Shown in pieces: positions 6,058 to 34,725 of a DNA stretch of 34,725 bases. Source of the DNA: Acetonema longum DSM 6540 (GTDB lineage Bacteria; Bacillota; Negativicutes; Sporomusales; Acetonemataceae); NCBI RefSeq assembly GCF_000219125.1, contig NZ_AFGF01000087.1, positions 1 through 34,725 on the forward strand. The letters run 5' to 3'. Positions within the stretch are counted from its first letter, which is position 1, and each line of letters opens with the position of its first letter. The position numbers and the translations under genes were made by a program. Under the pieces are notes generated by a model, which had not been told where the DNA came from, made no database searches, and saw nothing but the letters and a program-made list of their open reading frames with translations.

Positions 6058-6393
6058 AATATCACCTCTAAAATTAAATTTCGTACCTATTGCCGTTTTA
6101 ACCAGAAAGCGCTTTCTATATGGCTTGAAAGGAATCCGAGGGTAGTTACCGTTTTCTCAGTTCCCTTCAGTTTTGAGCCACCATTTAAATATACCTTCCG
6201 GGACGAATTCAATTGTCTGATTTTTAATACTATTTGCCTATGAAGGAATATAAGATATTATTAAATAAGAATAGCAGTATACAAGGAGCGCGGTATTTAC
6301 AAGGTGTCACAAGGGACGGGGTTAGCGACAAATTCAATCCGATTATTTGCCTCTAAAACGTGAGGACAGATGATTTGTTTTGCCGCAGAACAA
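6058..6393. other. Spacer between the 206-aa gene and the defence operon
   Basis: No gene is supported here. The stretch carries one degenerate arm of the dispersed repeat (6303-6366) and an AT-rich segment that could hold the promoter of the 206-aa gene. No confident -35/-10 pair was picked. Confidence 0.4.
6303..6366. repeat. Partial, diverged copy of the palindromic repeat
   Basis: GGTGTCACAAGGGACGGGGT is followed by GCGACAAATTCAATCCGATT and TTTGCCTCTAAAACGTGAGG, which match the left arm and centre of the other copies. The right arm is missing. It lies 28 bp beyond the stop of the 294-aa gene. Confidence 0.55.
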
Positions 6394-7278: not shown

Positions 7279-8368
7279 TCCGCTTAAACTCCAAAAGCTG
7301 GCGCAAATCTATTTTCTCCTGATCTAGAAAACCTTTAGGCCAAGAAGATAATTCTCCATACTTATTCACATTAATAATTTTAGGATTGATCACCCCTTCC
7401 TCATGGGAAAAAAAGTTAATAATCAAATTATCTGTGTTATTTAAAAAAGCACTTTGTAAGCGAATACCATTAATTACGTGTTCACTATGAGTCTCTATAA
7501 TAATTTGGGTTTCACTGTAAAATGAAAGTAAAGCAAGAAACTTGCCAATAGACGACTGACCAAAAGGATGAAGATGCGCTTCTGGATTTTCGACAATAAA
7601 AATACATCCTGGTTCAGTAGAGGCTAATAATCCAGCAACGACGATAGGTAAAACGTAGGTGATACCAAACCCTGTAGCAGGTGGCATATAGAAATCCGTT
7701 CCAGAATCACCACTTCTAAATTTAATAGTAGCTACATTAATGTCATGGAAGACTTCTGACTTCAACTCTATTCTTGGAATAATGGTCTGGAGCCAAGCCT
7801 CTACTTGCGCAGAAAACCGTCCAGAATGTGGTTGACTCATTAGTTCCGGGGGTAAAACCCTATTTAATGTATCAGCATGAGAAAGTACGAAATAGGTAAA
7901 CTCCCCTTTGTATCCTACATCAAGATCCGTCGTAGCTTGCATCAATTGAGATTTTCTAGGACCAATTCTTTCGGCATTTAAATATCGAAAATGGTTCCAT
8001 TTTTTTTCATTATTTCGTTCTGTGGCAATGATTTCTAACGTAAGTGGGGTAAGATCTTCATTAATTCTATATGTGAATGATTGTTCGCTACCATCGTTGG
8101 AAGCAATACCTAAGCGAACTAAATTCGAACCATCAAAACTAGACTTTACCGCGCTTGCTCGTCCAAGCTCTAAACAGTACGGTCCATTCAATTCTATATT
8201 CGTTAGATTCAGATTTGCGATTTCCTGTGACCTCTTTAAAAGTAGCAACGATTGAATTACACTAGATTTTCCCGCTCCGTTACCGCCAGCTAAAACAGTC
8301 AAGGGAGAAAAATCTAACACTTGATTACCAAAACATTTAAAGTTTTTTATAACAAGTTTATTAATCAT
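7271..8368 (-). CDS. AAA ATPase, DUF3696/RecF-OLD-like
   Basis: Encodes 365 residues. The N-terminus MINKLVIKNFKCFGNQVLDF is typical of SMC/RecF/OLD-like ATPases. Walker A is GGNGAGKSS at about 28-36. The distal part contains FIVENPEAHLHPFGQS (about 253-268; Walker B-like ENPEAHLHP), followed by QIIIETHSEHVINGIR (about 286-302). This combination, with ETHS(E/D)HxxNGIR, is characteristic of DUF3696-type AAA ATPases common in defence loci. No TOPRIM domain is visible, so it is not a full OLD nuclease. It overlaps the upstream DUF262 gene and the downstream unknown gene by 8 bp each. The likely role is nucleotide-dependent sensing or activation within the system. Confidence 0.88.
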   Translation of the reverse strand: MINKLVIKNFKCFGNQVLDFSPLTVLAGGNGAGKSSVIQSLLLLKRSQEIANLNLTNIELNGPYCLELGRASAVKSSFDGSNLVRLGIASNDGSEQSFTYRINEDLTPLTLEIIATERNNEKKWNHFRYLNAERIGPRKSQLMQATTDLDVGYKGEFTYFVLSHADTLNRVLPPELMSQPHSGRFSAQVEAWLQTIIPRIELKSEVFHDINVATIKFRSGDSGTDFYMPPATGFGITYVLPIVVAGLLASTEPGCIFIVENPEAHLHPFGQSSIGKFLALLSFYSETQIIIETHSEHVINGIRLQSAFLNNTDNLIINFFSHEEGVINPKIINVNKYGELSSWPKGFLDQEKIDLRQLLEFKRNV

Positions 8369-10193: not shown

Positions 10194-11434
10194 CTCGATA
10201 ATAAATTTAAATATTTCTTAACTGTTCGCCCAATAGCTTCTGCTAGCATAGGGGGAACAGCATTACCTACTTGGGAACACCGAGCGACATCAAATCTACG
10301 TCGCGGTCCATTAATAGTGTAGCGCCCTCTAAATACAAAATTATCGGGGAAAGATTGTAATCTTGCCATCTCTCGAACGGTTATAATACGTGGCTCACTA
10401 TAATGGACAAACTCATCAGGATGTGTAGTAATAGTAGATGCTGGCATCCCAGGGTCAAGCAAAACCTTTTTGTCTTTTTTAGTCCCATATTCAATCAAAA
10501 CAGACTTGGGTAGCCTTCCATACATTTGTTTTTCATGAACCATTTTGTAAAATTCAATGGTCTTATTACCATGAAAACTAAACCTATGTGAATCAGGTAC
10601 CGTTAAGTCAGGTATACCAGTTCTCATTAAAGCTGAAAATACGGATTGGGGTGTTTTGTATGTTGTGGATAAAAACTTGGAAGAGTCAGGGCACGGTATT
10701 CTATTAGCATTATTCAAATCCTCAAGGGCTTCAAAAACAGTTACGGGATGTTCCAAGCTTAATCCCTTTTCTTTTAGAAATTCTGGTCTTAACTCTTCCA
10801 TCAGATCAAAGAATTCACTAACAGTCTTCGACCCATCCAAGAGCTCTTTTTGTACGCCAAATATGATCAGACGCTTTCTTATCTGAGGAACACCAAATTT
10901 ACTTGCGTCTATAATTTTATATGCGGCTACATATCCTAATTCACCTAATTTGTTAACTAACCAATCGAGAAAAGCCCCCTTGAACGAGCTTGGTTTAGAT
11001 AAAAATGGTCTTGCCATTCCATCAACATTTTCAAAAATAATGACACGTGGTTTTACTAGTGATACAAATTCTAAATACTTAATAGGTAAATTGTTACGTG
11101 AATCGTTACCATCTCGCATACCACCAACCGAAAATCCTTGACAGGGCGGTCCACCACATACAATATCTATCTTTCCTTGCAAGTCTAATAGATGTCTGCG
11201 TAAGACTAAGTTCCCTAAGATTTCATTTATGTCAAAGCTTTTCTTTTGAAGCCATTCCGGCCATTGGGAAAAATTGTGATAAGGAGCGTTATCTTCTAAA
11301 AAATTAGCTGATAAAGTCTCAAAAGCCATTGGATCTTTTTCAATAGCAAAAAGCCCCATAATATTAGCTTTATGAAAACCTAGTGCCAAACCTCCTGCAC
11401 CAGCGAAAATATCTATACATACTAGGTTAGTCAA
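10190..11434 (-). CDS. DNA (cytosine-5) methyltransferase
   Basis: Encodes 414 residues, starting with TTG at 11434 behind GGAGG (8-nt spacing). All main C5-MTase motifs are present. Motif I is DIFAGAGG (8-15), motif IV GGPPCQGFS with the catalytic Cys at about 98, motif VI FENVDG (about 135) and motif VIII QIRKRLIIFG (about 186). Motif IX is in the REMARLQSFPDNF region (about 357), and motif X is QVGNAVPPMLAEAIG (about 392). A target-recognition region lies between about 200 and 340. It is the first gene of a tightly overlapping four-gene operon, so it probably marks self DNA for the DUF262/ATPase machinery. An orphan regulatory role is less likely given the overlaps. Its recognition sequence cannot be read from the protein. 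Confidence 0.95.
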   Translation of the reverse strand: MTNLVCIDIFAGAGGLALGFHKANIMGLFAIEKDPMAFETLSANFLEDNAPYHNFSQWPEWLQKKSFDINEILGNLVLRRHLLDLQGKIDIVCGGPPCQGFSVGGMRDGNDSRNNLPIKYLEFVSLVKPRVIIFENVDGMARPFLSKPSSFKGAFLDWLVNKLGELGYVAAYKIIDASKFGVPQIRKRLIIFGVQKELLDGSKTVSEFFDLMEELRPEFLKEKGLSLEHPVTVFEALEDLNNANRIPCPDSSKFLSTTYKTPQSVFSALMRTGIPDLTVPDSHRFSFHGNKTIEFYKMVHEKQMYGRLPKSVLIEYGTKKDKKVLLDPGMPASTITTHPDEFVHYSEPRIITVREMARLQSFPDNFVFRGRYTINGPRRRFDVARCSQVGNAVPPMLAEAIGRTVKKYLNLLSR

Positions 11435-14660: not shown

Positions 14661-15726
14661 TTAGAGTAGTGCTTCAATATTCTCTTGAGAAAATTCATGC
14701 CAAACTGTTTCTTCTTTTCCACGTTGTTCAGTCATGAAAGAACGAAATGATTCCTCTGTAACGGGTGCATCATTTATGAAATAAAAACAGTATCATTATT
14801 ATCATCAGAATATCCTAATGTATCAAACTCACAAGTGTTTTTTGAAAATCGCATTTTCCTGCAAGAAGTTCTGGCTGCGCCGCCTGAAGCAAAAAATGTC
14901 CCATCCGTTTTTAAACCATTCAAAGATCGAATACTAAATAAATAGCCATAAACTTCACCGTTATAATAATGTAGATAGAACTTCACGAAAGTTAGGACCT
15001 AAATCAAAGAACAACTTCCGGTATTTTGTTTCCATCCATGTCAAGCATGGTAAAGTGGGTTAGTTTATATCCAGAATTTGCTCCAGCCTCTAAAAATTCA
15101 TGCAAATAGCAGGATTTCTCTTTTTTCTCCGGGCTTTGATAAAAAGCGCTGGAAAAAGCAGCTTTATTTTGCAGAACTTTTTTATATGCTTCAATTGCTA
15201 AAGTCTTCTCTGTGATTTCACTGCTTTTTGCCGTATTAGCGTCTATCTTTCCACGGCTGCCTAACCCGACCATCCCTTCTGGATAATCAATCAACCACTG
15301 GTTCAGTTGCTTTACTCTATCCCAAGTCAATTTAGCCGCTTCAATGTTGTAAATAGGAAATACGCTTCCGTAATGAATGTGTTTATCTTTTTCCGAATAT
15401 ATAGATTCAAGATAGGCATCTCTATACTTAATCCAAGCTATTTCCGCATTGGTGAGTTTGTCCAAAAACAATTTGTTATTTTTATATTTGACAAATATCT
15501 GCCCGTAGATTTCGTTTAATTTATCATCCGCTCTTTTAAACTCTCTGTACGCTGCCTCATTCATTTCACTCTGACTTCCTCTGAGCCCTGGATCAGAATA
15601 GTCAATTTCAAAATTTTCGTTGTACTCCTTGATTGGAGGAGTCTTGGCTGCCCAGACATCCTTATTGAAAATAAGGACAGTTAACCCTAAAACAAGCAAT
15701 ATAACAGCTAATTGGTTTTTCACCAT
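14661..15726 (-). pseudogene. Frameshifted LprI-like secreted protein (paralogue of 3032-4174)
   Basis: The start at 15726 follows GGAGAAG. A signal peptide (ILLVLGLTVLIFNKDVWA) and an LprI-type domain are very close to the intact paralogue. Residue for residue, NEAAYREFKRADDKLN and the KYKNNKLFLDKLT region are shared. After TMLDMDGNKIPEVVL the frame stops at 15004. A shifted frame continues HYYNGEVYGYLFSIRSLNGL and DGTFFASGGAA to 14774. A second shift, at a TTTTT run, restores FINDAPVTEESFRSFMTEQR and onward to TAA at 14661-14663. The C-terminal domain differs from the paralogue's. Two frame breaks argue for decay rather than one sequencing error. The first 240 residues could still be secreted. 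Confidence 0.7.
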
Positions 15727-18326: not shown

Positions 18327-19085
18327 CTAAACGGTGGCTCCGCCATCAATCGTAATTACGCTGCCAGTCATGAACGCGGCTTCATCGCAGCAGGCAAACA
18401 AAATAGCCTGCGCTATTTCTTCCGCCGTTCCCAGACGCCCCATCGGCTGCCTGGCAATAAAAGCCGCCTTGGTTGCCGCCGGGTCGGCGGAAGCCTGCAT
18501 CCGCTCTTCCAGCGACGGCGTATCGGTAGTTCCAGGGCAGACGACGTTAACCCGGATATTGTCCTTGATGTAATCGGCCGCCATCGCTTTGGAAAGCGCC
18601 ACCACCGCGCCTTTGGACGCCGCATAGGCGCTTCTGTCAGGTATGCCTTTTAAGGCCGCGATCGATGACACATTCACAATCACGCCGCCGCCTTGCTTTT
18701 GCATCTCCGGCACGGCGTATTTGCAGGTTAGGAAAGTACCTTTGACATTGACATCCATGGTTCTTACAAAATCCGCTTCCGTCATATTGTCAACGCGGCC
18801 GCCGATCACAATGCCGGCGACATTAATCAATATATCAATTTTTCCGAAGGCGGCGACCGTCTCTCTGACCATTCTCGCAGCGTCGGCGGCGATTGAGACA
18901 TCGCCCTGCACGAATAGGCCGGCGGCGCCGGCGTCTTTTACCAGCTTCAGGGTTTCCTCTCCCCGGCTGCCGGAAATGCCGTTGACAACCACCGCGGCCC
19001 CTGCCCTGGCCAAAAGCCCGGCGGCAGCGCGGCCTATTCCCGCCCCCGCTCCGGTAACCAGAACAACTTTATCGGTAAAACGCAT
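18327..19085 (-). CDS. SDR-family dehydrogenase/reductase
   Basis: Classical short-chain dehydrogenase of 252 residues from the ATG at 19085, which has GAGGAG upstream; a longer start at 19121 lacks one. The Rossmann motif is TGAGAGIG (about 12-19) and NVAG is at about 87. The catalytic Ser is in IVNVSSIAAL (about 138), and Tyr/Lys in YAASKGAVVALSKA (about 152-156). The usual C-terminal ending FMTGSVITIDGG is present. The enzyme oxidises or reduces an alcohol/ketone with NAD(P)H; the substrate is not readable. As the last gene of a GntR-TRAP operon it probably performs the first oxidation of the acid imported by the TRAP system. Confidence 0.9.
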   Translation of the reverse strand: MRFTDKVVLVTGAGAGIGRAAAGLLARAGAAVVVNGISGSRGEETLKLVKDAGAAGLFVQGDVSIAADAARMVRETVAAFGKIDILINVAGIVIGGRVDNMTEADFVRTMDVNVKGTFLTCKYAVPEMQKQGGGVIVNVSSIAALKGIPDRSAYAASKGAVVALSKAMAADYIKDNIRVNVVCPGTTDTPSLEERMQASADPAATKAAFIARQPMGRLGTAEEIAQAILFACCDEAAFMTGSVITIDGGATV

Positions 19086-19134
19086 TGTTATCTCCTCTCT
19101 GCCTAAAGCCTCTGTATTCATTATACTGTCTGTG

Positions 19135-20421
19135 CTATTGCTTGCCGAAGATCATATCCGGGACAAATAACACGATTTGCGGAAAAAAGATGCAGCCAAG
19201 CACCACGATCAAGGTTGCCAGCAATAACCACCATGAATCCCTGTACATCTCAACGATTGAGCAGTTAAAAATGCTGCAGACGATGAACATGACCACTCCA
19301 ACCGGCGGTGTCAGCAGACCAATGGTGAGCGTAAGCACCATCACAATGCCGAAATGGACCAAGTCTATGCCCACCGCTCTGGCAATCGGGATCAATATGG
19401 CGGTAAGCAGCAGGATCAGGACGGTGGAATCCATAAACATGCCTACGACTAACAGCATAGCGACAATGATCAGCATGACCAACCAGGGATCACCGGAAAT
19501 GCCCACAATTAACTCGGCAAAAGCCTGGGGCAGCTGTTCCCAGGTCAGGCCATAACTGAAAATAGCCGACAGGGAAATCAGCAGCATGACCATCCCGATA
19601 TCCACAACGGTATCTTCCAGCGTCCTGACGAATTTTTCCCAGGTAAATTCCCGGTACACAAACACGCCAATGGTAACCGCGTATGCCACCGCAAAAGCGC
19701 CCGCCTCCGAAGGCGTGAACAAGCCGAACCGCAACCCTACGATCAAAAGAACAGGAAACAAAAAGGCCCAGATGCAATCCAGCGAAGTCGTCACCAATTC
19801 TTTGAGAGTGATCCGTTCTGTCCGCTCAGGCTCATAGCCCTGTTTCCTGGCGGTAATTTCTATCGCCACCATATACAATACAGTCATCAATAGGCCGGGA
19901 ACCAGACCGGCGGCAAACAGGCGCCCAATCGACACTTCGCCGATACTGCCGTATAAAACCAGTCCTATGCCGGGCGGAATCATAGTGGTAATTAAGGAAC
20001 TGAAGGCGATAACGCCCGCGCAGAAGCCCCGGGAATAACCTTTTTCGAGCATACCCGGCCCCAAGACCCGGCCAAGCATGGTGGCGTCGGCAATGGCGGA
20101 ACTCGTGATGCCGCCCAGTGTGGCTGCCAACACCATGTTGACCTGGGCCAGGCCGGCGCGCAGATGACCTGCCAGCATTGACGAAAGCCGCATCAGGCGA
20201 TGGGTTATGCCGGTTTCATTCAACAAGTTGCCCGCAAAAACAAACAGCGGAATAGCCAGCAGCATAAAGCTCTGCGTCTGGGTGAGCACCAACTGGGCCG
20301 GGATAGTCGATGGCAAAGTCGGCTGCTGCATAAAAAACATCATGCCGGAAATCCCGATAGCGAAAGCCACCGGCATGCCCATCAGCATGAACAAAAAAAA
20401 TGCAATAAAGACTTCCGTCAT
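19135..20421 (-). CDS. dctM: TRAP transporter large permease (DctM)
   Basis: Encodes 428 residues from the ATG at 20421, which has AGGGGG 9 nt upstream. About 12 hydrophobic helices are visible. DctM hallmarks are LLAIPLFVFAGNLL near the N-terminus and TLGGITSSAIADATMLGRVL and FSSLITTMIPPGIGLVLYGS in the first half. Later come GLFTPSEAGAFAVAYA and TLTIGLLTPPVGVVMFIVCS. It forms the ion-coupled translocation channel of a tripartite, ATP-independent periplasmic transporter together with the small permease upstream. It lies 60 bp after dctQ in the same operon. The substrate class is probably an organic or sugar acid. Gene length is normal. Confidence 0.93.
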   Translation of the reverse strand: MTEVFIAFFLFMLMGMPVAFAIGISGMMFFMQQPTLPSTIPAQLVLTQTQSFMLLAIPLFVFAGNLLNETGITHRLMRLSSMLAGHLRAGLAQVNMVLAATLGGITSSAIADATMLGRVLGPGMLEKGYSRGFCAGVIAFSSLITTMIPPGIGLVLYGSIGEVSIGRLFAAGLVPGLLMTVLYMVAIEITARKQGYEPERTERITLKELVTTSLDCIWAFLFPVLLIVGLRFGLFTPSEAGAFAVAYAVTIGVFVYREFTWEKFVRTLEDTVVDIGMVMLLISLSAIFSYGLTWEQLPQAFAELIVGISGDPWLVMLIIVAMLLVVGMFMDSTVLILLLTAILIPIARAVGIDLVHFGIVMVLTLTIGLLTPPVGVVMFIVCSIFNCSIVEMYRDSWWLLLATLIVVLGCIFFPQIVLFVPDMIFGKQ

Positions 20422-20481
20422 TTTAGCAATCCCCCTTGATACCAATTCACCGCCATGATGACTATCTGAATTGCCAAGAAA

Positions 20482-20994
20482 TCACATCAATTCTTTAGGG
20501 CAGCCGCATTCGCCATCCGGCATATTTTCATAGCCGTTTTGTATTAGATTCCTGATCTTCAGGATGGCCGTGATCAACATCAGCAGGCAGCCCAACGGCA
20601 CCGCGATGGTGACCCAGGTGTAGCTGACATCCGGAATCCCCTGAAAGGTTCTCAGCCGGGTAGTATAAGCAAGCTTCACGCCATGAGCAATCAACGACGC
20701 CAGGAAAACGACGATAATGGAGTAGTTGATGATTTTAAGGTAATGCTGGTACTTTTTGGGCAATCTGCAAGTAAGCACATCAATGCAGACCAGCCTGTCG
20801 TTTCTCATGGCGATATCGCCGCCCAGAAAAACGCACCAGGCGAATAGGAAGGTGGCGGCATCAATCGCCCATACGATCGGCATGCCAATACTCCTCATCA
20901 CCGCCGCCGCAATCACCAGCACAGTAAGAACAGCCAGAGCCCATTTGGCAATATGCATCTCCGCAGCGCAGACATACTGGTAGAATCTTCTCAT
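20482..20994 (-). CDS. dctQ: TRAP transporter small permease (DctQ)
   Basis: Encodes 170 residues with four predicted membrane helices. Key pieces are AVMRSIGMPIVWAIDAATFL, FAWCVFLGGDIAMRNDRLVC (the conserved GxxxAxR-type segment) and YTWVTIAVPLGCLLMLITAI. A GGGGGAATAAAG stretch precedes the ATG. It is the small membrane subunit that pairs with DctM. The gene sits between dctP and dctM with short gaps, as in standard TRAP operons. The C-terminus is short and ends in a Cys-containing tail (GECGCPKELM). Confidence 0.9.
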   Translation of the reverse strand: MRRFYQYVCAAEMHIAKWALAVLTVLVIAAAVMRSIGMPIVWAIDAATFLFAWCVFLGGDIAMRNDRLVCIDVLTCRLPKKYQHYLKIINYSIIVVFLASLIAHGVKLAYTTRLRTFQGIPDVSYTWVTIAVPLGCLLMLITAILKIRNLIQNGYENMPDGECGCPKELM

Positions 20995-21088
20995 TGCTTT
21001 ATTCCCCCGCTTTTACCGTCATCCGGTCTTTGCCGCCGGTTATTCCGGCCCCCCGCCCGGGAGAGCCGGAATAGCAGCTTCTTATCGG

Positions 21089-22111
21089 TTATTTTTTGCC
21101 CATTTCCTTATAAAGCTGATCCCTTACTTCCGTAAGCTTTAGAACATTGTACGCTCCCTCACCGGCTTTCCTGAAGGCGGCGGCGTCAACATCCTGCACG
21201 ATGGTCATGCCTTTTTCCGCCAGCTGCTTCCTAAGGGGTTCCACTTCCTTCTCCATTTCCCGCGAGGCCTCAAGACCGGCTTTATCGCACTCTTCCACAA
21301 GTATTTGCTGATACTCGGGCGGCAGGCTGTCAAAAAACTTTTTGCTGATCACCTCGAAGTTGATCAACAGAATATGATTGGTCTCGCTCATATATTTCGC
21401 CACTTCAAACAGCTTGGCGCCCGTCACGTTGCGGTAAACGAGATCAGCGCCGTCGATGGCTTTCTGCTCCATGGCGATATACACTTCTCCAAACGGAAGA
21501 GCGACCGGCGAGGCGCCGATGGAACGGATGGACTCCTGCCAGATGGGCACGCCGGGCGTCCGGATACGCAGTCCCTTCAGATCATCCGGGGTTTTAATCG
21601 GCTTGTTGGTCACCATGTGCCGCAGCCCCTGCACCCAGGTAAAGGACAGGATCTTGATGCCGTGTTTGTCTTCCAGTTCTTTCTGCCAGGCTTTAACGGT
21701 GGCCAGTTCCCTGAGTTTGGCGACTTCGTCAATGCTGTCGACAAAGTATGGCGCGTTCATCACCGCAATCGCCGGGACATACATGCCCAGACGCGCCGAA
21801 TCGGTATTTTGGCCGATGTTGGCCCCTTGCCTGATCTGCTCGATAATATCTTCTTCCACGCCAAGCTGAGCGCTGTGGAATACCTGAATCTCAAGCCCGC
21901 CGTTCGTCCTCTCTTTAACCCGTTTGCCCCAGTTCAGGAATCCCTTATGAAAGGGTTCCGAATCGGATAACACGTGATTGAACTTCAGAACGTATTTTTG
22001 TTTGGGAGATTTCGTTTTAGCAGTTTCCGTCTTGCCGCAAGCCGCTAAAATCAATGACATCATAACCATGATCAGCAAAACACTCAGAAGCTTCCTGGAA
22101 TTTTTCACCAA
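21089..22111 (-). CDS. dctP: TRAP substrate-binding lipoprotein (DctP)
   Basis: Encodes 340 residues. The N-terminus has a lipobox (MSLILAACGK), so it is tethered at the membrane, as in monoderm-derived lineages. DctP features include FNHVLSDSEPFHKGFLNWGK, GGLEIQVFHSAQLG, DLKGLRIRTPGVPIWQESIR (with the conserved substrate-binding Arg) and GEVYIAMEQKAIDGAD. The start is TTG at 22111 or, equally likely, GTG at 22108; both follow a perfect AGGAGGT. The family binds C4-dicarboxylates, sialic acid, uronates and other acids. The sequence alone does not fix the ligand. It is the first transporter gene, 46 bp after the GntR regulator. Confidence 0.93.
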   Translation of the reverse strand: MVKNSRKLLSVLLIMVMMSLILAACGKTETAKTKSPKQKYVLKFNHVLSDSEPFHKGFLNWGKRVKERTNGGLEIQVFHSAQLGVEEDIIEQIRQGANIGQNTDSARLGMYVPAIAVMNAPYFVDSIDEVAKLRELATVKAWQKELEDKHGIKILSFTWVQGLRHMVTNKPIKTPDDLKGLRIRTPGVPIWQESIRSIGASPVALPFGEVYIAMEQKAIDGADLVYRNVTGAKLFEVAKYMSETNHILLINFEVISKKFFDSLPPEYQQILVEECDKAGLEASREMEKEVEPLRKQLAEKGMTIVQDVDAAAFRKAGEGAYNVLKLTEVRDQLYKEMGKK

Positions 22112-22157
22112 AAACTACCTCCTCGAATAATTATCTACCCGTCCACTTTCATTGAAA

Positions 22158-22835
22158 CTATAAAGGCTGGCCCTTTGCCAGGTTTTTATTGATTTTATTT
22201 TTGGCGTTAATGATATGAACTTCCACGCAACGGCGCAATTCAGCCTCGTCCTGGGATACAAGAGCGTTATAGATGGCCTCATGCTCTTTGACGCCGGCAA
22301 TGGTCTCCTCTCTTGTCTGGCGGCGGTAAATGTGATATGCGTAATCATGAGTGCCTAAATGGTTGTATATCTGCATAATCCGCTTGCAGCCCGAAGACTT
22401 GACGAACAGCTGATGAAACTCCTGGTCTAAATAATAATTGCGGAAGTAATCGTTAAGATCAACAGCGTTTTCAACAATCTCCATGTGTTCACGCAGGTTT
22501 GCCGTAAACTTTTGTTGAATGCCGAGGTCTTTTTTAAAATTTTGCAGGATTTGTTTCACATAATTCATTTCTATCATTAACCGTATGTCGAATAATTCTT
22601 CAATGTCCTCCCATTTCAATTCCCGCACTTTAACGCCTCTGCGGGGAATGCTCTCGACCAGACCTTCGGTAATCAATCTGTTTAGCGCCTGCTTGATCGG
22701 CGTTTCGCTGATGCCATACCGCTCATGCAGTTCTCTGATAATTACTTTTTGTCCGGGAAGAAGAACCTTCTCGGTAATGTCTTTTTTCAGCGCTTTATAC
22801 GCTACATCAACCAGTGTCTGGGATTGATAGTACAT
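22158..22835 (-). CDS. GntR-family regulator, FadR/FCD subgroup
   Basis: Residues about 5-70 are a GntR winged helix: LVDVAYKALKKDITEKVLLP, IIRELHERYGISETPIKQAL, ITEGLVESIPRRGVKVREL. The remainder is an FCD ligand domain with metal-ligand-type residues (DQEFHQLFVKSSG and KEHEAIYNALVSQDEAELRR). The start at 22835 is preferred over an in-frame ATG at 22901, because a plausible promoter lies between them. It heads a minus-strand operon with dctPQM and SDR genes, so it most likely represses this catabolic operon and is released by the transported acid or a product. Palindromes at 22884-22929 are candidate operators. Confidence 0.88.
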   Translation of the reverse strand: MYYQSQTLVDVAYKALKKDITEKVLLPGQKVIIRELHERYGISETPIKQALNRLITEGLVESIPRRGVKVRELKWEDIEELFDIRLMIEMNYVKQILQNFKKDLGIQQKFTANLREHMEIVENAVDLNDYFRNYYLDQEFHQLFVKSSGCKRIMQIYNHLGTHDYAYHIYRRQTREETIAGVKEHEAIYNALVSQDEAELRRCVEVHIINAKNKINKNLAKGQPL

Positions 22836-22883
22836 CGTGTCCAATTGCGCGAACCCCCAATGATTCCCATATAATAGTAGATA

Positions 22884-22929
22884 TGCAATAATTATCTGCA
22901 AGAGAACTAAATTTTAGATTTAAAATCTA
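22884..22929 (-). promoter_or_regulatory. Candidate GntR operators and promoter
   Basis: TAGATTTAAAATCTA (22915-22929) is a perfect 15-bp palindrome. TGCAATAATTATCTGCA (22884-22900) is a second near-palindrome. On the minus strand TTGCAG, 16 nt, TACTAT gives a possible sigma-70 promoter overlapping the second one. The position suits autoregulation of the operon. Confidence 0.4.
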
Positions 22930-25193: not shown

Positions 25194-25209
25194 TGGCATA
25201 AAAATTGCA
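25194..25209 (+). promoter_or_regulatory. Sigma-54 promoter (-24/-12)
   Basis: TGGCATAAAAATTGCA has the invariant GG and GC dinucleotides separated by exactly 10 bases and closely matches the TGGCAC-N5-TTGCA consensus. It lies about 112 bp before the carboxyltransferase ATG. A sigma-54 activator gene is nearby. Confidence 0.85.
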
Positions 25210-25320: not shown

Positions 25321-26667
25321 ATGAGCAAACCACTAAAAATTGTCGAAACTATATTGCGAGATGGACACCAATCTCTAGCAGCAACACGGATGAGAACGTC
25401 TGATATGCTTCCTGTTTTAGAGCAATTAGATGATGCTGGGTTTTGGGCGCTGGAGGCCTGGGGCGGAGCAACTTTTGACAGTTGTCTTCGATTCTTGAAC
25501 GAAAATCCATGGGATCGATTACGTACACTGAAAAAATATATCCGGAAAACTCCAATTCAAATGTTGCTTCGGGGTCAGAATATTCTAGGCTATAATCACT
25601 ACGCTGATGATGTGGTCAAAGAGTTCATCAACAGAGCAGTTGATAACGGCGTAGGTGTCATAAGGATATTTGACGCATTGAATGATGTCCGCAACTTAGA
25701 GGTTTCCATCCGTGCTGCCAAAGAAGCGGGGGCTCACGTTCAAGGAGCTTTCGTTTATACAATCAGTCCGTATCACGACATCGACAGCTTTCTGAAAGTA
25801 GCGAAAGATTTGGTCAATCTGGGTGTAGACTCAGTTTGCATTAAAGATATGGCAGGATTGCTGGCGCCATATGCAGCATTTGAGTTGGTGCGTACATTAA
25901 AGTCTAACATACCGGCGCCTATTCATCTGCACACTCACTACACCAGCGGAATGGCTTCGATGACTTATCTAAAAGCGATTGAAGCCGGTGTCGATATCGT
26001 AGACTGCGCTCTGTCTCCTTTCTCGATGGGGACTTCGCAGCCTGCTACCGAGGCTGTAGTGGCTGCCTTGGAAGGAACAGAGCGGGATACGGGCATCGCC
26101 AAGGAAAAACTATACCCTATTGCGGATCACTTCCGGGGTGTAAAAAAGGAATTGGCTGAAACTTTTAAACTCAATACAGCAATCGATATCGATACCAAAG
26201 TACTTACTTACCAGATTCCCGGCGGCATGCTGTCCAATTTTCTTAACCAGTTAAAGGAGCAAGGCATGGCCGACAAATATCCGGAACTGCTGGAGGAAAT
26301 GCCGCGTGTCCGCGCTGAACTCGGGTATCCCCCGCTTGTGACTCCTACTAGTCAGATTACCGGATCAATGGCAGCCTTTAATGTCATGCTGGGCAGATAT
26401 AAGGTCGTGCCACGTGAGGTAAAAGACTTGGCCCGGGGTAAATATGGGCGAACCCCTGCACCGATTGATCCGGCAACAAGAGAGACAATACTTGGTGATG
26501 AGCCATTAATTGAGCATCGGCCGGCTGATGATATTGCACCGCAAATGGCTGCCTTAACAGCAGATCTTGCCGATAAGGGATATCCCAATGCATTGATAGA
26601 AGATGTGCTATCTTACGCACTATTTCCAGAAGTTGCGTTAGACTTTTTAAGAGAAGATGGTTGCTGA
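25321..26667 (+). CDS. Biotin-dependent carboxyltransferase subunit (5S / PycB / OadA type) without biotin domain
   Basis: Encodes 448 residues; GAAAGGAAG precedes the ATG. It has a TIM-barrel carboxyltransferase domain with VETILRDGHQSLAATRMRT (metal- and keto-acid-binding DGHQS) and LRGQNILGYNHYADDVV. Further motifs are CIKDMAGLLAPYAA (the Lys that is carboxylated) and HLHTHYTSGMA (metal His pair). The helical PYC/OADA domain (about 300-445) follows, but the protein ends at FLREDGC with no MKM biotinyl domain. It thus resembles transcarboxylase 5S or PycB-type subunits that need a separate biotin carrier, which is not in this window. It transfers CO2 between oxaloacetate/pyruvate and biotin. 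It is first in a sigma-54 operon with the hydrogenase. Confidence 0.9.
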   Translation: MSKPLKIVETILRDGHQSLAATRMRTSDMLPVLEQLDDAGFWALEAWGGATFDSCLRFLNENPWDRLRTLKKYIRKTPIQMLLRGQNILGYNHYADDVVKEFINRAVDNGVGVIRIFDALNDVRNLEVSIRAAKEAGAHVQGAFVYTISPYHDIDSFLKVAKDLVNLGVDSVCIKDMAGLLAPYAAFELVRTLKSNIPAPIHLHTHYTSGMASMTYLKAIEAGVDIVDCALSPFSMGTSQPATEAVVAALEGTERDTGIAKEKLYPIADHFRGVKKELAETFKLNTAIDIDTKVLTYQIPGGMLSNFLNQLKEQGMADKYPELLEEMPRVRAELGYPPLVTPTSQITGSMAAFNVMLGRYKVVPREVKDLARGKYGRTPAPIDPATRETILGDEPLIEHRPADDIAPQMAALTADLADKGYPNALIEDVLSYALFPEVALDFLREDGC

Positions 26668-26705
26668 TTTATGATAATAAAAAATTAATAAAAGCGGGAG
26701 AAAAT

Positions 26706-28199
26706 ATGCCACAAGTAACTGATGTCGTGAAAATTCACCGTAAAATTTTAACAAAAACAGCCCAGTACGCATTGGAAGGAACTTTAAAAGAAAATATTAC
26801 AGGAATACCGAAATCGATTGTCACTGAAGACGGCCCTCGCTATCGATGCTGCATTCACAAGGAACGAGCCGTACTTAACGATAGAATCGCTATAGCACTC
26901 AGTCAACCCCTTGGTACGAATCTGCAGGAGGCGGCGGAAAACGCTTTATCAGGCAAATCAACAAATATGCCTATTATGCAGGTTTTACCCGCGGCCTGTG
27001 ATAAATGCCCCATCGATAAATTTATTGTGACCGACGCTTGCCGGAATTGTGTAGCTCACAACTGCATAAGCGCTTGTGCGAAGAAAGCGATCATGGTTGT
27101 GCAAAATAAAGCATATATGGATAAGACCAAATGCTCTGAATGCGGTCTCTGCAAACGTTCATGTTCGTATGGCGCTATTATAGAAATCAGCCGGCCTTGC
27201 GAACGATCCTGCAATCTACAGGCAATTACTGCCGGCAGTGACCGCAGGGCGGTTATAAATTACGAAAAATGCGTTCAGTGTGGTGCATGTAAGGCAGGAT
27301 GTCCATTCGGAGCAATAAGCGACCGTTCAATGCTAGTCCAAGTGATAAACCATTTGAAAAATGGCAGCCGCGTTTATGCGGTGGTAGCCCCGTCTATAGT
27401 CGGCCAATTCGGTGTTAAGGTAAAAACATCTCAAGTGATGAATGCTTTGCAGAAAATTGGATTCCACAACGTTCTGGAAGTCGCCATGGGGGCAGATATT
27501 ATTGCATTAGAAGAGACTAAGGAATTCTTAACTAAGGCCATAGAACAGCCTGGTTTTATGACCACTTCATGTTGTCCGGCATTTGTCGATATGATTGAAA
27601 AGCATATGCCGAACATAAAAAATCAAGTCTCTACGACTGTATCACCCATGATTGCGATAGGTAAAGTAATTAAGAATGATGACCCGGATGCAGTTATAGT
27701 ATTTATTGGGCCTTGTATTGCAAAGAAGTCAGAGATTATAAAACATCCTGGGATTATCGATTATGTCGTTAGTTTTGAAGAATTGGCAGCTTTATTTGAA
27801 GGCGCCAATATTAACATTACGGAAATTGAAGAAAGAACCTACGAAAGTACTGCATCTCATGATGGGAATATTTTTGCCCGGGCAGGCGGTGTCTTGTCGG
27901 CTGTATTAAATACCGCGAAAGAAATGGATCCCGGCATAAAGATTTTGCCCCATCGGTGTGACGGTCTAGAAAACTGCAAAACAGCTCTTGCTAATATCCG
28001 TGATGGTAAAATTAATGCAAATTTCTTTGAGGGTATGGCTTGCGAAGGCGGTTGCATCGGCGGGCCAGGTTCGCTAAGCGATTATCGTATTACATCCAGG
28101 TTATTAGACAATCACGCCGAAGCGCTTACAGTTAAAACATCGCCTGAAAATAAGAGAGCGTTAGAGGAAGTGAATAAGCACCTTCACTGGCACTATTGA
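26706..28199 (+). CDS. Monomeric [FeFe] hydrogenase, group-B-like
   Basis: Encodes 497 residues from the ATG at 26706, chosen for the GCGGGAG site upstream (a longer frame starts at 26661). The N-terminal half has Cys clusters: CDKCPIDKFIVTDACRNC (about 98-115), CSECGLCKRSC (about 140) and CVQCGACKAGCPFGAI (about 190). The H-cluster motifs are TTSCCPAFVD (about 285), GPCIAKKSE (about 335) and EGMACEGGCIGGPG (about 441). TSCCPAF instead of TSCCPxW, and the IGPCIAKK form of motif 2, fit the poorly studied group B enzymes. It likely exchanges electrons with ferredoxin to make or sense H2. It sits 38 bp behind the carboxyltransferase gene. Maturases are not in this window. Confidence 0.9.
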   Translation: MPQVTDVVKIHRKILTKTAQYALEGTLKENITGIPKSIVTEDGPRYRCCIHKERAVLNDRIAIALSQPLGTNLQEAAENALSGKSTNMPIMQVLPAACDKCPIDKFIVTDACRNCVAHNCISACAKKAIMVVQNKAYMDKTKCSECGLCKRSCSYGAIIEISRPCERSCNLQAITAGSDRRAVINYEKCVQCGACKAGCPFGAISDRSMLVQVINHLKNGSRVYAVVAPSIVGQFGVKVKTSQVMNALQKIGFHNVLEVAMGADIIALEETKEFLTKAIEQPGFMTTSCCPAFVDMIEKHMPNIKNQVSTTVSPMIAIGKVIKNDDPDAVIVFIGPCIAKKSEIIKHPGIIDYVVSFEELAALFEGANINITEIEERTYESTASHDGNIFARAGGVLSAVLNTAKEMDPGIKILPHRCDGLENCKTALANIRDGKINANFFEGMACEGGCIGGPGSLSDYRITSRLLDNHAEALTVKTSPENKRALEEVNKHLHWHY

Positions 28200-28307: not shown

Positions 28308-30401
28308 TTATACATCTCTATGTTTCCAGGAATCGAGACTTTGAAGCAGTTCATTCCCTTTTTCAGTAACTTTATTGCCTTGCTTAGTAGCACCCGCAAT
28401 CAGATAACCATTTTTTATTAAGATTTTTAACCAGTGGCGGACTTTATATTCAGACCATCCTAAATTTAACAATTCCAGTCTTTTTAACAGAGCATTCCTG
28501 CCCAACCCTTTTTTCTCCACCGCACATGCACTTTTTATTTCAGCCAGGATCGCAGCTACCTCTTTGCGGACATTCTGCATCTCCAGTTCATGAACAAAGC
28601 CGTCAGTATCCTTTTCGATTTGAACATCAGAGAACGCAACAGGAGCTTTTGGCCCCTTGCCAGTTATATAAGATGGCAAGTGTTCTATCGATGCCTCATT
28701 CCAGCCGACAACATTATATAAATATATAACTATATTCTGAAGTTCACGTATATTGCCTGGCCAGCTATATCGCTGCAAGAAAGCCGAAAGCTCGGAATGC
28801 AGCCGCAAAGGATAGCCATACGATTTCCGGCTAAAAAAATCGATAAGTTTTATTATATCGCCCCCTCTTGCCGCCAAGGAGGGAATATTAATGGGCAATG
28901 TACACAGTCGGTAATATAAATCCCCACGAAATTTACCGGACTCCACCAATTGGACTAAATTCTTATTCGTTGCGGCTACGACCCTTACATCAACAGGCGT
29001 TACAGCCCTTCCTCCCACCCGCCGGACCTCTCGTTCTTCCAGCACGCGAAGCAGCCTTTTCTGCACTTCCAGCGATGCATCACCTATCTCATCCAGAAAT
29101 ATCGTCCCTTTATGAGCTTCTTCAAAAAGGCCCGGTTTTCCGCCCTTTTTAGCACCAGTGAAGGCCCCCTCATCATAGCCAAATAATTCACTTTCAATGA
29201 GATTTTCCGGTAATGCTGCAAAATTTATTGCCACAAAGCCGCCATGCTTTCGCGGTGACAGATTGTGTATAGCTTGGGCGAACATTTCTTTTCCCGTTCC
29301 ACTTTCACCCTCCAGCAATATCGTGGACTCCGTCTTTGCAAAGTGTGTCGCTAATTGAATAGCGTTCTTTAATTCCGGTGACTCGCCGATAATATCGCTA
29401 AATGAGTATTTGGCTAAGTTACCGGACAGCCTCAATTCACGTCTTACTTTCGTCTCAAGCTCCTGGACCTCCGAAACAGGCCGTATGGTAGCGACAGCCC
29501 CTGAAACAAAACCAGTTGTATCAATAATAGGATTGGCATCAAGAATATAATGACTAGAACCAATTTGTTTAAAGTCATGCCGCAGCAGCTGACGTTCCCG
29601 GATGACGGATCTCAAATCAATTTCAGGTGCAATCCTCGTCATTTTTTGGCCTATCACTTCTTTTTCCTGGAGTTGCAATAACTTTGCGGCTGCAGGATTC
29701 AGCAAGGTAACTTCTTCCTCTGTATCTACTGCTATAATTGCCTGGGTGACTGTATTGAGCAATGCACTGTTTAACGAAGCGATTTGCTGCCGCTTTACCG
29801 TGATCGCCATGATATCATGAATATACTGATTTGATATTTTGTTTAAAATTTGCAAAGGCAGATGTAAATGATGAATCAGTTGCGCAAAAGTGGAAATATC
29901 CAGTCCTTTTGCTCCCAAATCTATAACCGTGCGTATAGATGGCGGTACAAGATTCCTGGAACCTGTAATAATTACAGTATTGATTTCGCTCGATAATTCC
30001 ATTTGACATCCCGGATAGTAAGGATACATCGTTATATGGTGTATACCAAAATTTTTGACCATTTCGATACCCATCAAAGCTGTCTCTTTAGAGTGAGTCG
30101 CAAAAATGGCTTTAGTGGTTGGGTCCAACTCCAGCAGATGATCAAGATGTTCAGTATTAATTGTCCGGTCGGCAATAAAAATTGTCTTCCTTTCCGGCAA
30201 GTGTGGTTTAACGACATTATATACCACTTTAGAGGAGGTGATATATACATCACTATCAACGACACCAGTCAAATCATCCAGGTTGTTTAAACTCCATTCT
30301 TTAACATTTATATATTGTCCAAGGAATCGCGAAAGCTGCTGAGCTGGCAGTCTGCAGACGGCTTCATTTCGACCAATAAAACATACTTCAGCCTTCTTCA
30401 T
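28308..30401 (-). CDS. Sigma-54-dependent activator (PrpR_N-like, PAS, AAA+) with winged-helix end
   Basis: Encodes 697 residues from the ATG at 30401 (GGAG 8 nt upstream; the longer start at 30434 lacks a usable site). Residues about 1-190 resemble the PrpR N-terminal sensor fold and 215-320 are a PAS domain ([20 protein letters not shown]). Residues about 330-570 are the AAA+ domain, with GESGTGKE (Walker A, about 364), [14 protein letters not shown] (sigma-54-contacting GAFTGA) and [11 protein letters not shown] (Walker B). The C-terminus lacks a typical Fis helix pair; instead [20 protein letters not shown], then [11 protein letters not shown], looks like a winged helix. It probably activates the two -24/-12 promoters on either side. 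Confidence 0.9.
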
Positions 30402-30565
30402 ATCATTACTCCATAAAACAAATTTATCGGCCATCCCTTAAGAGACAGACAATTAACTTCTGTCTAACATGATGATACCATATAAGTAATTCTATACGCT
30501 ATCCCCTGTCAGGCGAACTTACTGAACATGGCTAATAAGCCTTTCCAGTCTTTGCTTGCTCTAGT

Positions 30566-30600
30566 AAAAAGACTGCCAACAATTACTTGTCGGCAGTCTG
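30566..30600 (-). terminator. Rho-independent terminator of the CitMHS operon
   Basis: On the minus strand AGACTGCCGAC pairs with GTTGGCAGTCT (one mismatch) and runs into a TTTTTACT tract. It lies 50 bp beyond the transporter stop. Confidence 0.7.
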
Positions 30601-30651: not shown

Positions 30652-31971
30652 TTAAAAAGGAAACAATCCGAGGACTAATGCGGTAGCTATAAAGATAAGC
30701 GTTATCATAATCGCCGGTATTAAACCATACTTTTGCAAATCAGCCATACTAACGCCGCTCATTCCAACCAAAAGCCACGTAGAGGCTGTGAGTGGGCTGA
30801 AGGTATGCGGAGGCGGTCCAAGCAATGATGCCCGAGCGATTTCAACTGTCGAAATACCATAGGCGGAAGCCGCTTTAGACAAAACAGGAAGGACTCCAAA
30901 GTAAAAAGCGTCATTCGTCATGAAGAAAGTGCCTGGAATAGTGAGCAACGCCGTAAACAATGCCATATGCGCCCCCATGGAAGACGGGATCATGGCGATG
31001 AGTGACTGTGCCATCTGATCCACCATTTTGGTGCCAGACATAATCCCCATCATAATGCCGGCAGCAAAGATGAGTGAAATAACCGGCAGTGCAGAGGAAG
31101 CGTGTTCTTTCACGCGCTCTTGCTGATCCGCTAATTTAGGATAGTTGACCACAAGCACCAAGCCGGTTCCAATCATGAACAGAAGCATTAATGGCAAAAC
31201 TTCCGTCATGAGACAATATAACAGAACCGTGGTCAGGCCCAAGTTAAACCAAAACAGCTGAGGCCGCTTTAGCGTATCTGTAGATGCAGTTTCCGGGATA
31301 TTCGTACATTCATCAGTTGCACTGACTGATTTCACCCAGCCGAGACGCTTGCGTTCACGCATTCCCCAGACATAAGCAAAAATCAGGACCCCGACGGTAG
31401 CAACTACCATACCGGGTATTAGGGGTAAAAACACTTCTTCGCTGGTTAAATTAAGCGAAGCCAATACCCGCCCGGTTGGTCCGCCCCAGGGCAACAAGTT
31501 CATTATGCCAACTTGCAAAGCACAGAGAGTAGGCAGCATAGCCGGGTGAACACCGACACTCTTATGCACCGCCAGCAAGGCTGAGCACACTGTCAGATAA
31601 GTGGTGGCGCCATCGCCGTCAAGCGATACTATCGCCGACAAAATACAGGTACCGACAGCAACCCGTAGCGGATCACCTTTAACCACTTTTTTAATAGCAT
31701 TGACCAGCGGGTCAAATAATCCCGCATCAATCATCGTACCGAAATACAGAATCGCGAAACAAAGCATTACCGCTGTTGGCGCCGCTTGTAAAACACCATC
31801 TTTCATCCATCCGCCCATTTTTGCCGGATCGGCCATACCCATCACAACAAGGCCAATTCCAAACACTATCGGAACCAACATAAGCGCAACCATCGCCGAC
31901 ATACGCTTGCTCAAGATCAGGTACATAAACAGACAGATCATCATGAAGCCTAAAAATGCTACTAAAGTCAT
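30652..31971 (-). CDS. CitMHS-family citrate-metal/proton symporter
   Basis: Encodes 439 residues from the ATG at 31971 with GAGAGGAG upstream; an upstream in-frame extension to 32085 has no site. About 12 membrane helices are present. Family hallmarks are AILYFGTMIDAGLFDPLVNA, SLDGDGATTYLTVCSALLA, MNLLPWGGPTGR and NDAFYFGVLPVLSKAA. The last third has GPPPHTFSPLTASTWLLVG. Known CitMHS proteins import citrate complexed with Mg or Ca in symport with protons. Substrate choice here could extend to related tricarboxylates. It is third in an operon, 167 bp behind the unknown Cys-rich protein, and under the sigma-54 promoter at 33611. Confidence 0.9.
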   Translation of the reverse strand: MTLVAFLGFMMICLFMYLILSKRMSAMVALMLVPIVFGIGLVVMGMADPAKMGGWMKDGVLQAAPTAVMLCFAILYFGTMIDAGLFDPLVNAIKKVVKGDPLRVAVGTCILSAIVSLDGDGATTYLTVCSALLAVHKSVGVHPAMLPTLCALQVGIMNLLPWGGPTGRVLASLNLTSEEVFLPLIPGMVVATVGVLIFAYVWGMRERKRLGWVKSVSATDECTNIPETASTDTLKRPQLFWFNLGLTTVLLYCLMTEVLPLMLLFMIGTGLVLVVNYPKLADQQERVKEHASSALPVISLIFAAGIMMGIMSGTKMVDQMAQSLIAMIPSSMGAHMALFTALLTIPGTFFMTNDAFYFGVLPVLSKAASAYGISTVEIARASLLGPPPHTFSPLTASTWLLVGMSGVSMADLQKYGLIPAIMITLIFIATALVLGLFPF

Positions 31972-32138: not shown

Positions 32139-32762
32139 TTATTTTTTAATATTATCTTTGATGATGTCCGAGCACCGGACTTGATTGAAAATACCACAGT
32201 AGCAGAAATTAGCAAGTTTGATCGAACCTTCTTCCGGAGTTAAACGCCCAGCTTCCACTTGTTTGATAATGTGTTTGACAAACTTGGGCGGAATCATATG
32301 GTGTCCACACATTGTCGTGATGGAAAGTGTAACATCGTCGGGAAGATTATCCTTCTTGCCCCATACTCCCAGTGAGTAATTGACAGAGTGCGGAGTGACT
32401 CCAGCCTCGCGGCAGGCTGGAATGACTTCGTTCAGGATACCGGTAATAACGACAGACTGTCCTAAATCTTTAGCTTTAATCCGCTTTAAGAATTCAACTA
32501 CTTGCTCTCTGCGCGTAAACACACCACGCAGACGCGATTTATCGGTAATGCGCTCTTTAATCTCTTCGACGCTATAACCAGTAATAGGTCCGGTCTTTAC
32601 ATCCCCCCAATTTTCTGAACCTACAGCTTCAGCAGCAGCAATAAATTCCAGCGCCTTGGGTTTTATGTTTACATCATTGACTCCTTTCGTCTGATACATG
32701 AACCAGTTGAAATCCTTCTTTTGGGATTCAATGTCTCCCGATCTGTGCAGTGAATGTGTCAT
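32139..32762 (-). CDS. Uncharacterised Cys-rich protein of the citrate-transporter operon
   Basis: Encodes 207 residues from the ATG at 32762, chosen for GGAGGG 6 nt upstream (the frame extends to 32789). The protein is soluble. Residues about 120-207 contain VTLSITTMCGHHMIPPKFVK and KLANFCYCGIFNQVRCSDII. The Cys/His set (CGHH, CYC, RC) could bind an Fe-S cluster or metal. The middle has GQSVVITGILNEVIPACREA. No known family is recognised. It follows the ferredoxin-domain gene by 33 bp, so the two probably form one complex. Position before a CitMHS transporter suggests a redox or sensing step linked to citrate-like substrates. This is inference. Confidence 0.7.
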   Translation of the reverse strand: MTHSLHRSGDIESQKKDFNWFMYQTKGVNDVNIKPKALEFIAAAEAVGSENWGDVKTGPITGYSVEEIKERITDKSRLRGVFTRREQVVEFLKRIKAKDLGQSVVITGILNEVIPACREAGVTPHSVNYSLGVWGKKDNLPDDVTLSITTMCGHHMIPPKFVKHIIKQVEAGRLTPEEGSIKLANFCYCGIFNQVRCSDIIKDNIKK

Positions 32763-32795
32763 AATGGTTCCCTCCAAGTTTAGATTCATTGCGCT

Positions 32796-33524
32796 TTATG
32801 CAAGAGATAAGGGTCTTCCCAAGCCTACGTTGACTTTTCCGCGATGAGGGTAATTAATTCCAAGATCCTCTAAACAATCCAGCGTCGGCGTATGTCCATT
32901 TTCGTCCACCCGAATAATGAGGCCCAGTGAGAACACTGTATCAATCTCTTTTTCAACTTGCTTCAGGGCCTTTAAAACGTCAGGCAGGGTTGCCTCGGGA
33001 CACTTCCCCTCCACAATTACAGAAAGAAGATGATAATTATGACATTCGTCAACCAATTTACCAGTGGTTAAGTCCGGCATAAGCGCCGCCAGCGGAGTAT
33101 GATCGGAATTAGCCAGTTTTACGCCGGCTTTGGCGCAGGCCATGGCCACTTTTTCAGCATCGCGCAGGTAAACCCCCATGCCAGGGCGTCCCATATCAAT
33201 GCAGATGCCTACTTCACCTTTTATTACCCTACCCGAAACATCGTTAGTTTTAACTTCTTCTGTTCCTCTGCCGGTAACGCCGGTTACTCCGTGATTCTCA
33301 ACCGGATCACTCATTACATGTTGGAATTGTTTGTAGAAATTATTTAACTCAATTGGCTCAATAGCGCCTTTGGGACACACTTTCTGCCTTAGACAAACAT
33401 AACATTCGGTGCATCGGTCTTGATCGATATAGCATTTCTTGCCATCGGCCATAATAGCATCTACTGTACAGTAGGTCTGGCAGATTTTACATCCGATGCA
33501 TTTTTCCTGATTAATAGTGGCCAT
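32796..33524 (-). CDS. Two-[4Fe-4S] ferredoxin domain fused to an uncharacterised domain
   Basis: Encodes 242 residues, with GAGGAG before the ATG. Residues 1-55 hold two cluster motifs: CIGCKICQTYC (C9, C12, C15, C19) and CTECYVCLRQKVC (C38, C41, C44, C50). The rest (about 60-242) is a separate alpha/beta domain of no recognised family, with GEVGICIDMGRPGMGVYLRD, ANSDHTPLAALMPDLTTGKL and a Gly-rich end (GKVNVGLGRPLSLA). It is the first gene behind a sigma-54 promoter. Probably an electron-transfer subunit whose catalytic partner is the next gene. The operon's link to the [FeFe]-hydrogenase operon by a shared regulator suggests a common ferredoxin pool. Confidence 0.8.
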   Translation of the reverse strand: MATINQEKCIGCKICQTYCTVDAIMADGKKCYIDQDRCTECYVCLRQKVCPKGAIEPIELNNFYKQFQHVMSDPVENHGVTGVTGRGTEEVKTNDVSGRVIKGEVGICIDMGRPGMGVYLRDAEKVAMACAKAGVKLANSDHTPLAALMPDLTTGKLVDECHNYHLLSVIVEGKCPEATLPDVLKALKQVEKEIDTVFSLGLIIRVDENGHTPTLDCLEDLGINYPHRGKVNVGLGRPLSLA

Positions 33525-33610: not shown

Positions 33611-33626
33611 TGCAATTACCATACCA
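33611..33626 (-). promoter_or_regulatory. Sigma-54 promoter (-24/-12)
   Basis: On the minus strand TGGTATGGTAATTGCA has GG and GC exactly 10 bases apart. It lies 87 bp before the ferredoxin-domain gene. It pairs with the plus-strand promoter at 25194-25209; the activator gene lies between the two operons. Confidence 0.8.
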
Positions 33627-34187: not shown

Positions 34188-34216
34188 TTATGGAATATCA
34201 TAAGAGGAGGATGTCG

Positions 34217-34725
34217 ATGGCCAATATAGCCCTTCAAATCGATTTAAGTGCATCCACGATGGTAGCTACCGGATCAAACGTGCTTTTCGATACAATCGTC
34301 TACCTGGATGGTAATATAACCTACGATTCAGCAACTGGTATCATTACCCTTCAGGAGGCAGGCAGATATATCATACACTGGTGGCTGGCAACCCAATCGT
34401 CGGCTTCGGTCAATGGAACCTCTTTTGCGTTGTCCTCATCACAAGGAGATCTTCTGGAAGGTAATTCCCCGATTAAGACGGGCGAAGTATATGGAGTGGG
34501 AATTATTGAAGTTGCTGCAGCCCCAGTTACGATGTCATTGGAAAATATCAGTACCGCAACTATCTTTTTTGCTACGCAAGTTCCTTTAAAAGGCACCTTG
34601 GTGGTTGTAGAAGACGATATAGTCGAAATTGGGCCCACCGGACCTACCGGAACCACGGGTGTCACTGGTGATACCGGATCCACTGGAGCCACGGGTGTCA
34701 CTGGCGATACCGGACCTACCGGCGC
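34217..34725 (+). CDS. Collagen-like (Gly-X-Thr) probable spore-surface protein, 5' part
   Basis: The frame runs off the window. The ATG at 34217 (MANIALQIDLSAS) is preferred over the ATG at 34211, because AGAGGAGG ends 6 nt before it. Residues 1-135 form a beta-rich domain with ITLQEAGRYIIHWWLATQSS, ALSSSQGDLLEG and MSLENISTATIFFATQ. This resembles the C1q/TNF-like (BclA-type) jelly-roll domain, here at the N-terminus rather than the usual C-terminus. From about residue 138 Gly-X-Thr triplets begin (GPTGPTGTTGVTGDTGSTGA). Such proteins form exosporium or coat filaments. A minus-strand ORF over this region is a shadow of the repeats. Confidence 0.85.
   Translation, partial: MANIALQIDLSASTMVATGSNVLFDTIVYLDGNITYDSATGIITLQEAGRYIIHWWLATQSSASVNGTSFALSSSQGDLLEGNSPIKTGEVYGVGIIEVAAAPVTMSLENISTATIFFATQVPLKGTLVVVEDDIVEIGPTGPTGTTGVTGDTGSTGATGVTGDTGPTG

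Follow-up and report, generated by a model that had tools for sequence, protein, structure and literature searches.

A ferredoxin-domain protein and its obligate partner as a candidate two-subunit enzyme of anaerobic carboxylate catabolism

Here we describe an obligate, co-evolving pair of proteins from anaerobes, A and B, and propose, with a probability that we put at about one half, that together they constitute a ferredoxin-coupled two-subunit enzyme of inducible anaerobic carboxylate catabolism. The pair (AB) was found in a window of 34,725 nucleotides of Acetonema longum DSM 6540 (contig NZ_AFGF01000087.1, positions 1 to 34,725), by which we mean the whole stretch of DNA that was analysed. 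AB is probably an unnamed enzyme and not a member of any described family, since the two proteins always occur together, and often in gene sets for the switchable import and breakdown of citrate-like acids.

The first-pass annotation of the window had read two clear [4Fe-4S] motifs in protein A, and both are present in the open reading frame, which we confirmed. The eight cysteines are conserved in 98–100% of 86 homologues, Fer4 matches above its Pfam gathering score, and with its eight ligands, two CxxCxxC...C motifs and ferredoxin fold the N-terminal region belongs to the 2[4Fe-4S] ferredoxins. At the remaining cysteine positions of A the commonest residue reaches only 22–49% in the same homologues, and the conservation of the motif cysteines against this background argues that the motifs are not due to chance. 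In the AlphaFold model (pLDDT 88), compared with known folds, the ferredoxin domain spans residues 1–62 and is followed by a putative ACT-like domain at about 98–204. Residues 1–62 resemble bacterial 2[4Fe-4S] ferredoxins (1fca, 7ueb_B) in motifs and fold (Z 8.0–8.7); A differs from them by the added ACT-like domain with its own signatures, GRGTEE.KTN, GRP and K.N.G.G, which are invariant or near-invariant across the 86 homologues. The same annotation had called some 180 residues of A an unrecognised domain. Neither Pfam nor NCBIfam has a model that matches the C-terminal domain or its signatures, no Pfam ACT match appeared up to E 10, and no homology to a known enzyme was found for this domain or for B.

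For B, we found no Pfam or NCBIfam family, and searches of the PDB by sequence or profile gave no credible relative; the XPA matches of the profile search were 25 residues long and were dismissed. The mechanically called frame of B has 216 residues, nine more than the annotated reading, and we place the start at 32762 because residue 10 of the longer frame is Met in 97% of the sequences and has GGAGG upstream; residue numbers of B follow the 216-residue frame throughout. Two clusters, CGHH and CYC...RC, had been described as conserved-looking. Both are present, and C161, G162, H163, C196, C198, N202 and R205 are found in 100% and G199 in 98% of 90 homologues, but the second histidine of CGHH (58%) and the last of the three cysteines of CYC...RC, C196, C198 and C206 (37%, with Ala in 51%), vary. 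Besides their cysteines, A and B both contain many invariant polar residues.

The model of B (pLDDT 91) predicts an ACT/PII-like alpha-beta domain and a C-terminal helical domain that carries the invariant cysteines. A fold search of the PDB with the models of A and B returned no match at E<=0.001. Z values below 8 may reflect merely a common arrangement, and such are the values for the ACT-like region of A against 2nyi and 2hmf (Z 6.6–6.8, rmsd 2.7–3.0 over 75–80 residues), for residues 22–119 of B against ACT/PII-like domains (weak matches, Z 4–5) and for the best match of B (Z 5.3). With the ligand-binding domains of this type (2hmf, 2nyi, SbtB), A 98–204 and, weakly, B 22–119 appear to share the alpha-beta ferredoxin-like plait, but a sequence relation was not detected, and the versions in A and B are joined to Fe-S or cysteine-bearing domains. 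The comparison of the C-terminal domain of A with B gave a probability of 7.7%, and hence we do not claim that the two are homologous.

That A and B belong together is clear from their genes. B lies directly after A in 98 of 101 cases, with a median gap of 7 nt, and the trees of the two proteins mirror each other (r 0.93; none of 500 permutations exceeded 0.09). An apparent natural fusion at locus L074, a frame of 490 residues, was rejected as a frameshift: an Arg/Pro-rich stretch replaces the C-terminus of A. According to the record labels of isolates and MAGs, the latter taken unchecked, the hosts are Bacillota (Clostridia and Negativicutes), Desulfobacterota, Synergistota, Bipolaricaulota/Acetothermia, Dehalococcoidia and, as some MAGs, archaea; they are anaerobes, from habitats that include rumen and sediment. 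Of 100 genomes related to that of the window, 14 have the pair, as do 5 of 391 sampled Clostridia genomes, and a plasmid collection contained no relatives. Some genomes have up to six pairs, and tandem sets place two or three inside one cluster. Two main subfamilies separate at about 45–48% identity to the window proteins, and each of them is represented by one pair in the genome of the window.

In the window, A, B and a gene for a citrate:proton symporter look like one operon on the minus strand (Table 1). The transporter had been annotated as such, and the assignment to CitMHS is borne out by TIGR00784 (484.9 bits vs a cut-off of 259.7), transport being predicted from the sequence; CitMHS is also downstream of AB at locus L052. 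With a -24/-12 promoter before A and an AAA+ activator gene nearby, the operon is predicted to be under sigma-54 control. Related activators are found near AB in 16 loci, and an exact sigma-54 site precedes 6 of the 17 A genes in activator loci vs none of 87 in loci without an activator; before genes other than A, such sites number 10 in 1113. In other activator loci (L046, L049, L051, L055 and L059), a site that is exact or has one mismatch lies before a gene of the cluster other than A, as a rule the first one. The hairpin after CitMHS counts for little alone, since such sites in the region are as numerous as the shuffle mean. Across the activator gene from the AB operon sit the genes for an oadA-like protein and an [FeFe] hydrogenase, which have an exact sigma-54 promoter of their own, and one activator may possibly drive both operons as one regulon; a search for an activator site common to the two promoters gave nothing above chance. 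None of the ORFs of the window looks like a citrate lyase, in agreement with the first-pass annotation. Three CitF genes, from ordinary citrate lyase loci, lie on other contigs of this genome, which also has several aconitases, and AB is therefore not the sole route for citrate.

Table 1. Features of the AB operon and its surroundings in the window
Feature	Position	Strand	Remarks
Protein A	32796..33524	-	242 aa
First [4Fe-4S] motif of A	33468..33500	-	C9-x2-C12-x2-C15-x3-C19, read directly; 98–99% conserved
Second [4Fe-4S] motif of A	33375..33413	-	C38-x2-C41-x2-C44-x5-C50, read directly; 98–100% conserved
Protein B	32139..32762	-	207 aa; no known family
CGHH motif of B	32298..32309	-	C161, G162, H163 invariant
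C196-x-C198-G-x2-N202-x2-R205 motif of B	32175..32204	-	C196, C198, N202, R205 invariant
CitMHS citrate:proton symporter	30652..31971	-	Likely 439 aa; ORF reaches 32085
Predicted sigma-54 (-24/-12) promoter TGGTATGGTAATTGCA	33611..33626	-	Exact match, 86 nt before start of A
Hairpin and T tail, intrinsic-terminator-like, after CitMHS	30570..30599	-	13 pairs, 6 GC
Sigma-54-dependent activator, PrdR-like	28308..30434	-	708 aa; next gene after CitMHS
Second predicted sigma-54 promoter TGGCATAAAAATTGCA	25194..25209	+	Exact match, 111 nt before oadA-like gene
Oxaloacetate decarboxylase alpha / pyruvate carboxylase B-like protein (oadA-like)	25321..26667	+	
Monomeric [FeFe] hydrogenase	26661..28199	+	TIGR04105 above cut-off; overlaps oadA-like gene

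Elsewhere in the window, a GntR-like regulator, TRAP transporter-like genes and a short-chain dehydrogenase (18327-22901, minus strand) form another carboxylate uptake cluster. At 5437-11434 (minus strand) a DNA cytosine methyltransferase-like ORF is followed by a DUF262-like and an ATPase-like ORF, and to judge from these ORFs the region resembles a restriction or defence island. Two similar exported proteins (3032-4174 and 15004-15726, minus strand) share SQ/NQ-EMNEAAYREFKRADDKLN, one of them being apparently shortened, and at 34190-34723 (plus strand) a protein that has collagen-like G-x-T repeats begins, to be cut off by the end of the window.

The neighbourhoods of the homologues extend the picture seen in the window. 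Context gene families were taken as Louvain communities of a similarity network, and the counts that follow are approximate because the representatives alone were annotated. Of 47 pairs of the window type, 39 (83%) lie near TctABC or CitMHS carriers, with TctABC components within six genes in 37 and CitMHS in 2; the background of TctABC is low, judged from the window's genome, which has a single TctA gene in all. Aconitase/LeuCD-like genes are near 11 of the 47 and an isocitrate/homoisocitrate-dehydrogenase-like gene near 12, and 31 of 81 loci include genes of the hydroxyacid-dehydrogenase type (IDH-like, PdxA, NAD_binding_2/DUF1932, Ldh_2 and the like). The sister subfamilies have other neighbours, namely PdxA-like genes, TRAP carriers, NlpA lipoproteins and a CooF/mini-CooS/FNOR relay, and these varied contexts fit no single substrate. 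The suggestion that the pair is a module for citrate-like substrates is thus supported by gene context for the window type, but the family as a whole is broader.

For the activity of the pair, for a complex between A and B, for a cluster in B and for a substrate and the way in which it is converted, we propose the following. A and B would be the two subunits of one enzyme for the catabolism of hydroxy-, di- and tricarboxylic acids, and the pair of the window would serve an operon devoted to citrate or to a closely related acid, probably acting on citrate itself or on a relative that CitMHS carries. A would be the electron arm: its ferredoxin domain, to which the ACT-like domain is attached, would bear two [4Fe-4S] clusters. 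B would provide the probable active site, where C161, C196 and C198 would hold a further cluster or metal; H163 is near C161 in sequence, and the cluster or metal would keep a free coordination position to which a carboxylate or hydroxyl of the substrate would bind, in a site lined by invariant His, Arg, Lys and Asn from both subunits, as would suit a carboxylate substrate. Electrons would move between ferredoxin and this site via A, and the site would reduce, oxidise or reductively dehydroxylate the acid. Uptake of the acid, and its oxidation or isomerisation, would fall to the partner genes, with the NAD-dependent hydroxyacid dehydrogenases of the same operons performing the neighbouring oxidation step. 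No single specific reaction appears better than unlikely.

In the sister subfamily, the electrons would probably come to or from AB by way of CooF, mini-CooS and FNOR, which would link the pair to NAD(P)H. Mini-CooS, a CODH-like protein of 480 residues, stands beside AB in 20 loci in a near-constant gene order, and in nearly all cases an FAD-dependent NAD(P) oxidoreductase (FNOR) is encoded there as well as a CooF-like protein. When the 100 relatives were searched with the mini-CooS from the genome of the window, all 7 full-length matches proved to adjoin AB, as did an eighth that is cut by a contig end, and AB might for that matter be an electron-transfer or maturation accessory of these proteins. 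We consider this very improbable, because only 27 of 103 AB pairs have mini-CooS nearby, the pair of the window not being among them, and because mini-CooS itself is not, as a group, a CO dehydrogenase that retains the five C-cluster cysteines checked: according to the alignment, 11 of 18 have lost all five (L047, L054, L060, L062, L081, L085, L149, L154, L156, L160 and L163), and the 7 that keep them are those of Negativicutes; none of the 18 has lost any of the four B-cluster cysteines. CO chemistry therefore cannot unite the mini-CooS/AB operons, and an electron relay between NAD(P)H and AB would be the simpler shared role. Neither Pfam nor PDB results gave any homology of A or B to CODH. 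In some Negativicutes (L003, L128, L131 and L141) a gene for an NlpA-type lipoprotein precedes the CooF/mini-CooS/FNOR/AB operon, so this subfamily may act on a compound other than a tricarboxylate.

The first-pass annotation had left the choice between a redox enzyme and a sensor; of the two, the enzyme seems likelier, given the many invariant polar residues and the enzyme and relay genes around the pair. AB could instead sense redox state or a ligand and thereby gate either the transporter or the sigma-54 activator, much as the PII-like SbtB gates SbtA, and ACT/PII-like folds in both proteins and the close linkage to transporters and regulators would suit such a role. We nevertheless regard it as quite unlikely: AB is also found beside dehydratase and dehydrogenase genes and the redox relay, most AB loci have no sigma-54 activator, some clusters contain tandem sets of pairs, and the invariant polar residues, many in both proteins, look catalytic. 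Unlikely too, if a little less so, is that AB catalyses a redox-neutral reaction as an Fe-S lyase, hydratase or isomerase, in which B would have an aconitase-like three-cysteine cluster and the ferredoxin of A would merely keep the site reduced. Ligation by three cysteines occurs in site-differentiated clusters, and B has three invariant cysteines as well as partner genes for aconitase-like proteins and NAD-dependent hydroxyacid dehydrogenases, but all homologues have kept the 2[4Fe-4S] arm, and this, like the relay of the sister subfamily, speaks for a net flow of electrons. Against a ferredoxin-coupled enzyme it must be said that redox chemistry on citrate itself at the potential of ferredoxin is not obvious, that proteins with ACT-like domains are often regulatory, that ordinary citrate lyases are encoded elsewhere in the genome, and that no homologue of known function was found.

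AB resembles several known systems in part: (i) Ni-CODH clusters with mini-CooS, CooF and FNOR have been described, and it is in these operons that the sister subfamily of AB is found, whereas the pair of the window has no CODH-like partner; the passages on these clusters in PMC8776680 and PMC6344411 do not mention the AB pair. (ii) AB loci share their transporters, and in some relatives aconitase- or isocitrate-dehydrogenase-like genes, with the citrate and tricarboxylate uptake operons (TctABC, CitMHS). AB is not known to belong to any citrate or tricarboxylate uptake pathway. (iii) TcuB/CitB of tricarballylate utilisation is likewise an Fe-S protein adjoining a citrate-like transporter; TcuB is larger, membrane-associated and haem-bearing, whereas A is short and soluble-looking and has an obligate partner in B, and the TcuB model is not among the best 25 of the 76 NCBIfam matches of A. 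(iv) For 6-hydroxynicotinate reductase (E. barkeri), considered as a ferredoxin-dependent relative, we found no domain description in the literature, and the 391 Clostridia genomes gave ordinary AB-type matches only. The literature on the reduction of trans-aconitate and tricarballylate and on Sporomusa proteomics offered nothing useful for AB.

The building blocks of AB are known; the pair and the domain of B are described in no library searched. We tentatively suggest that AB represents a new class of ferredoxin-dependent two-subunit enzymes for hydroxy- or tricarboxylic acids in anaerobes, in which the undescribed helical domain of B would carry a catalytic site formed by an Fe-S cluster or a metal, and that the mini-CooS proteins, at least those without C-cluster cysteines, are its relay partners and not CO dehydrogenases. 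If true, a widespread two-gene enzyme family of anaerobes has stood unnamed within carboxylate operons, the orphan mini-CooS or clade G proteins would gain a partner and a role other than in CO metabolism, and a ferredoxin-coupled step would be added to the anaerobic catabolism of carboxylates.
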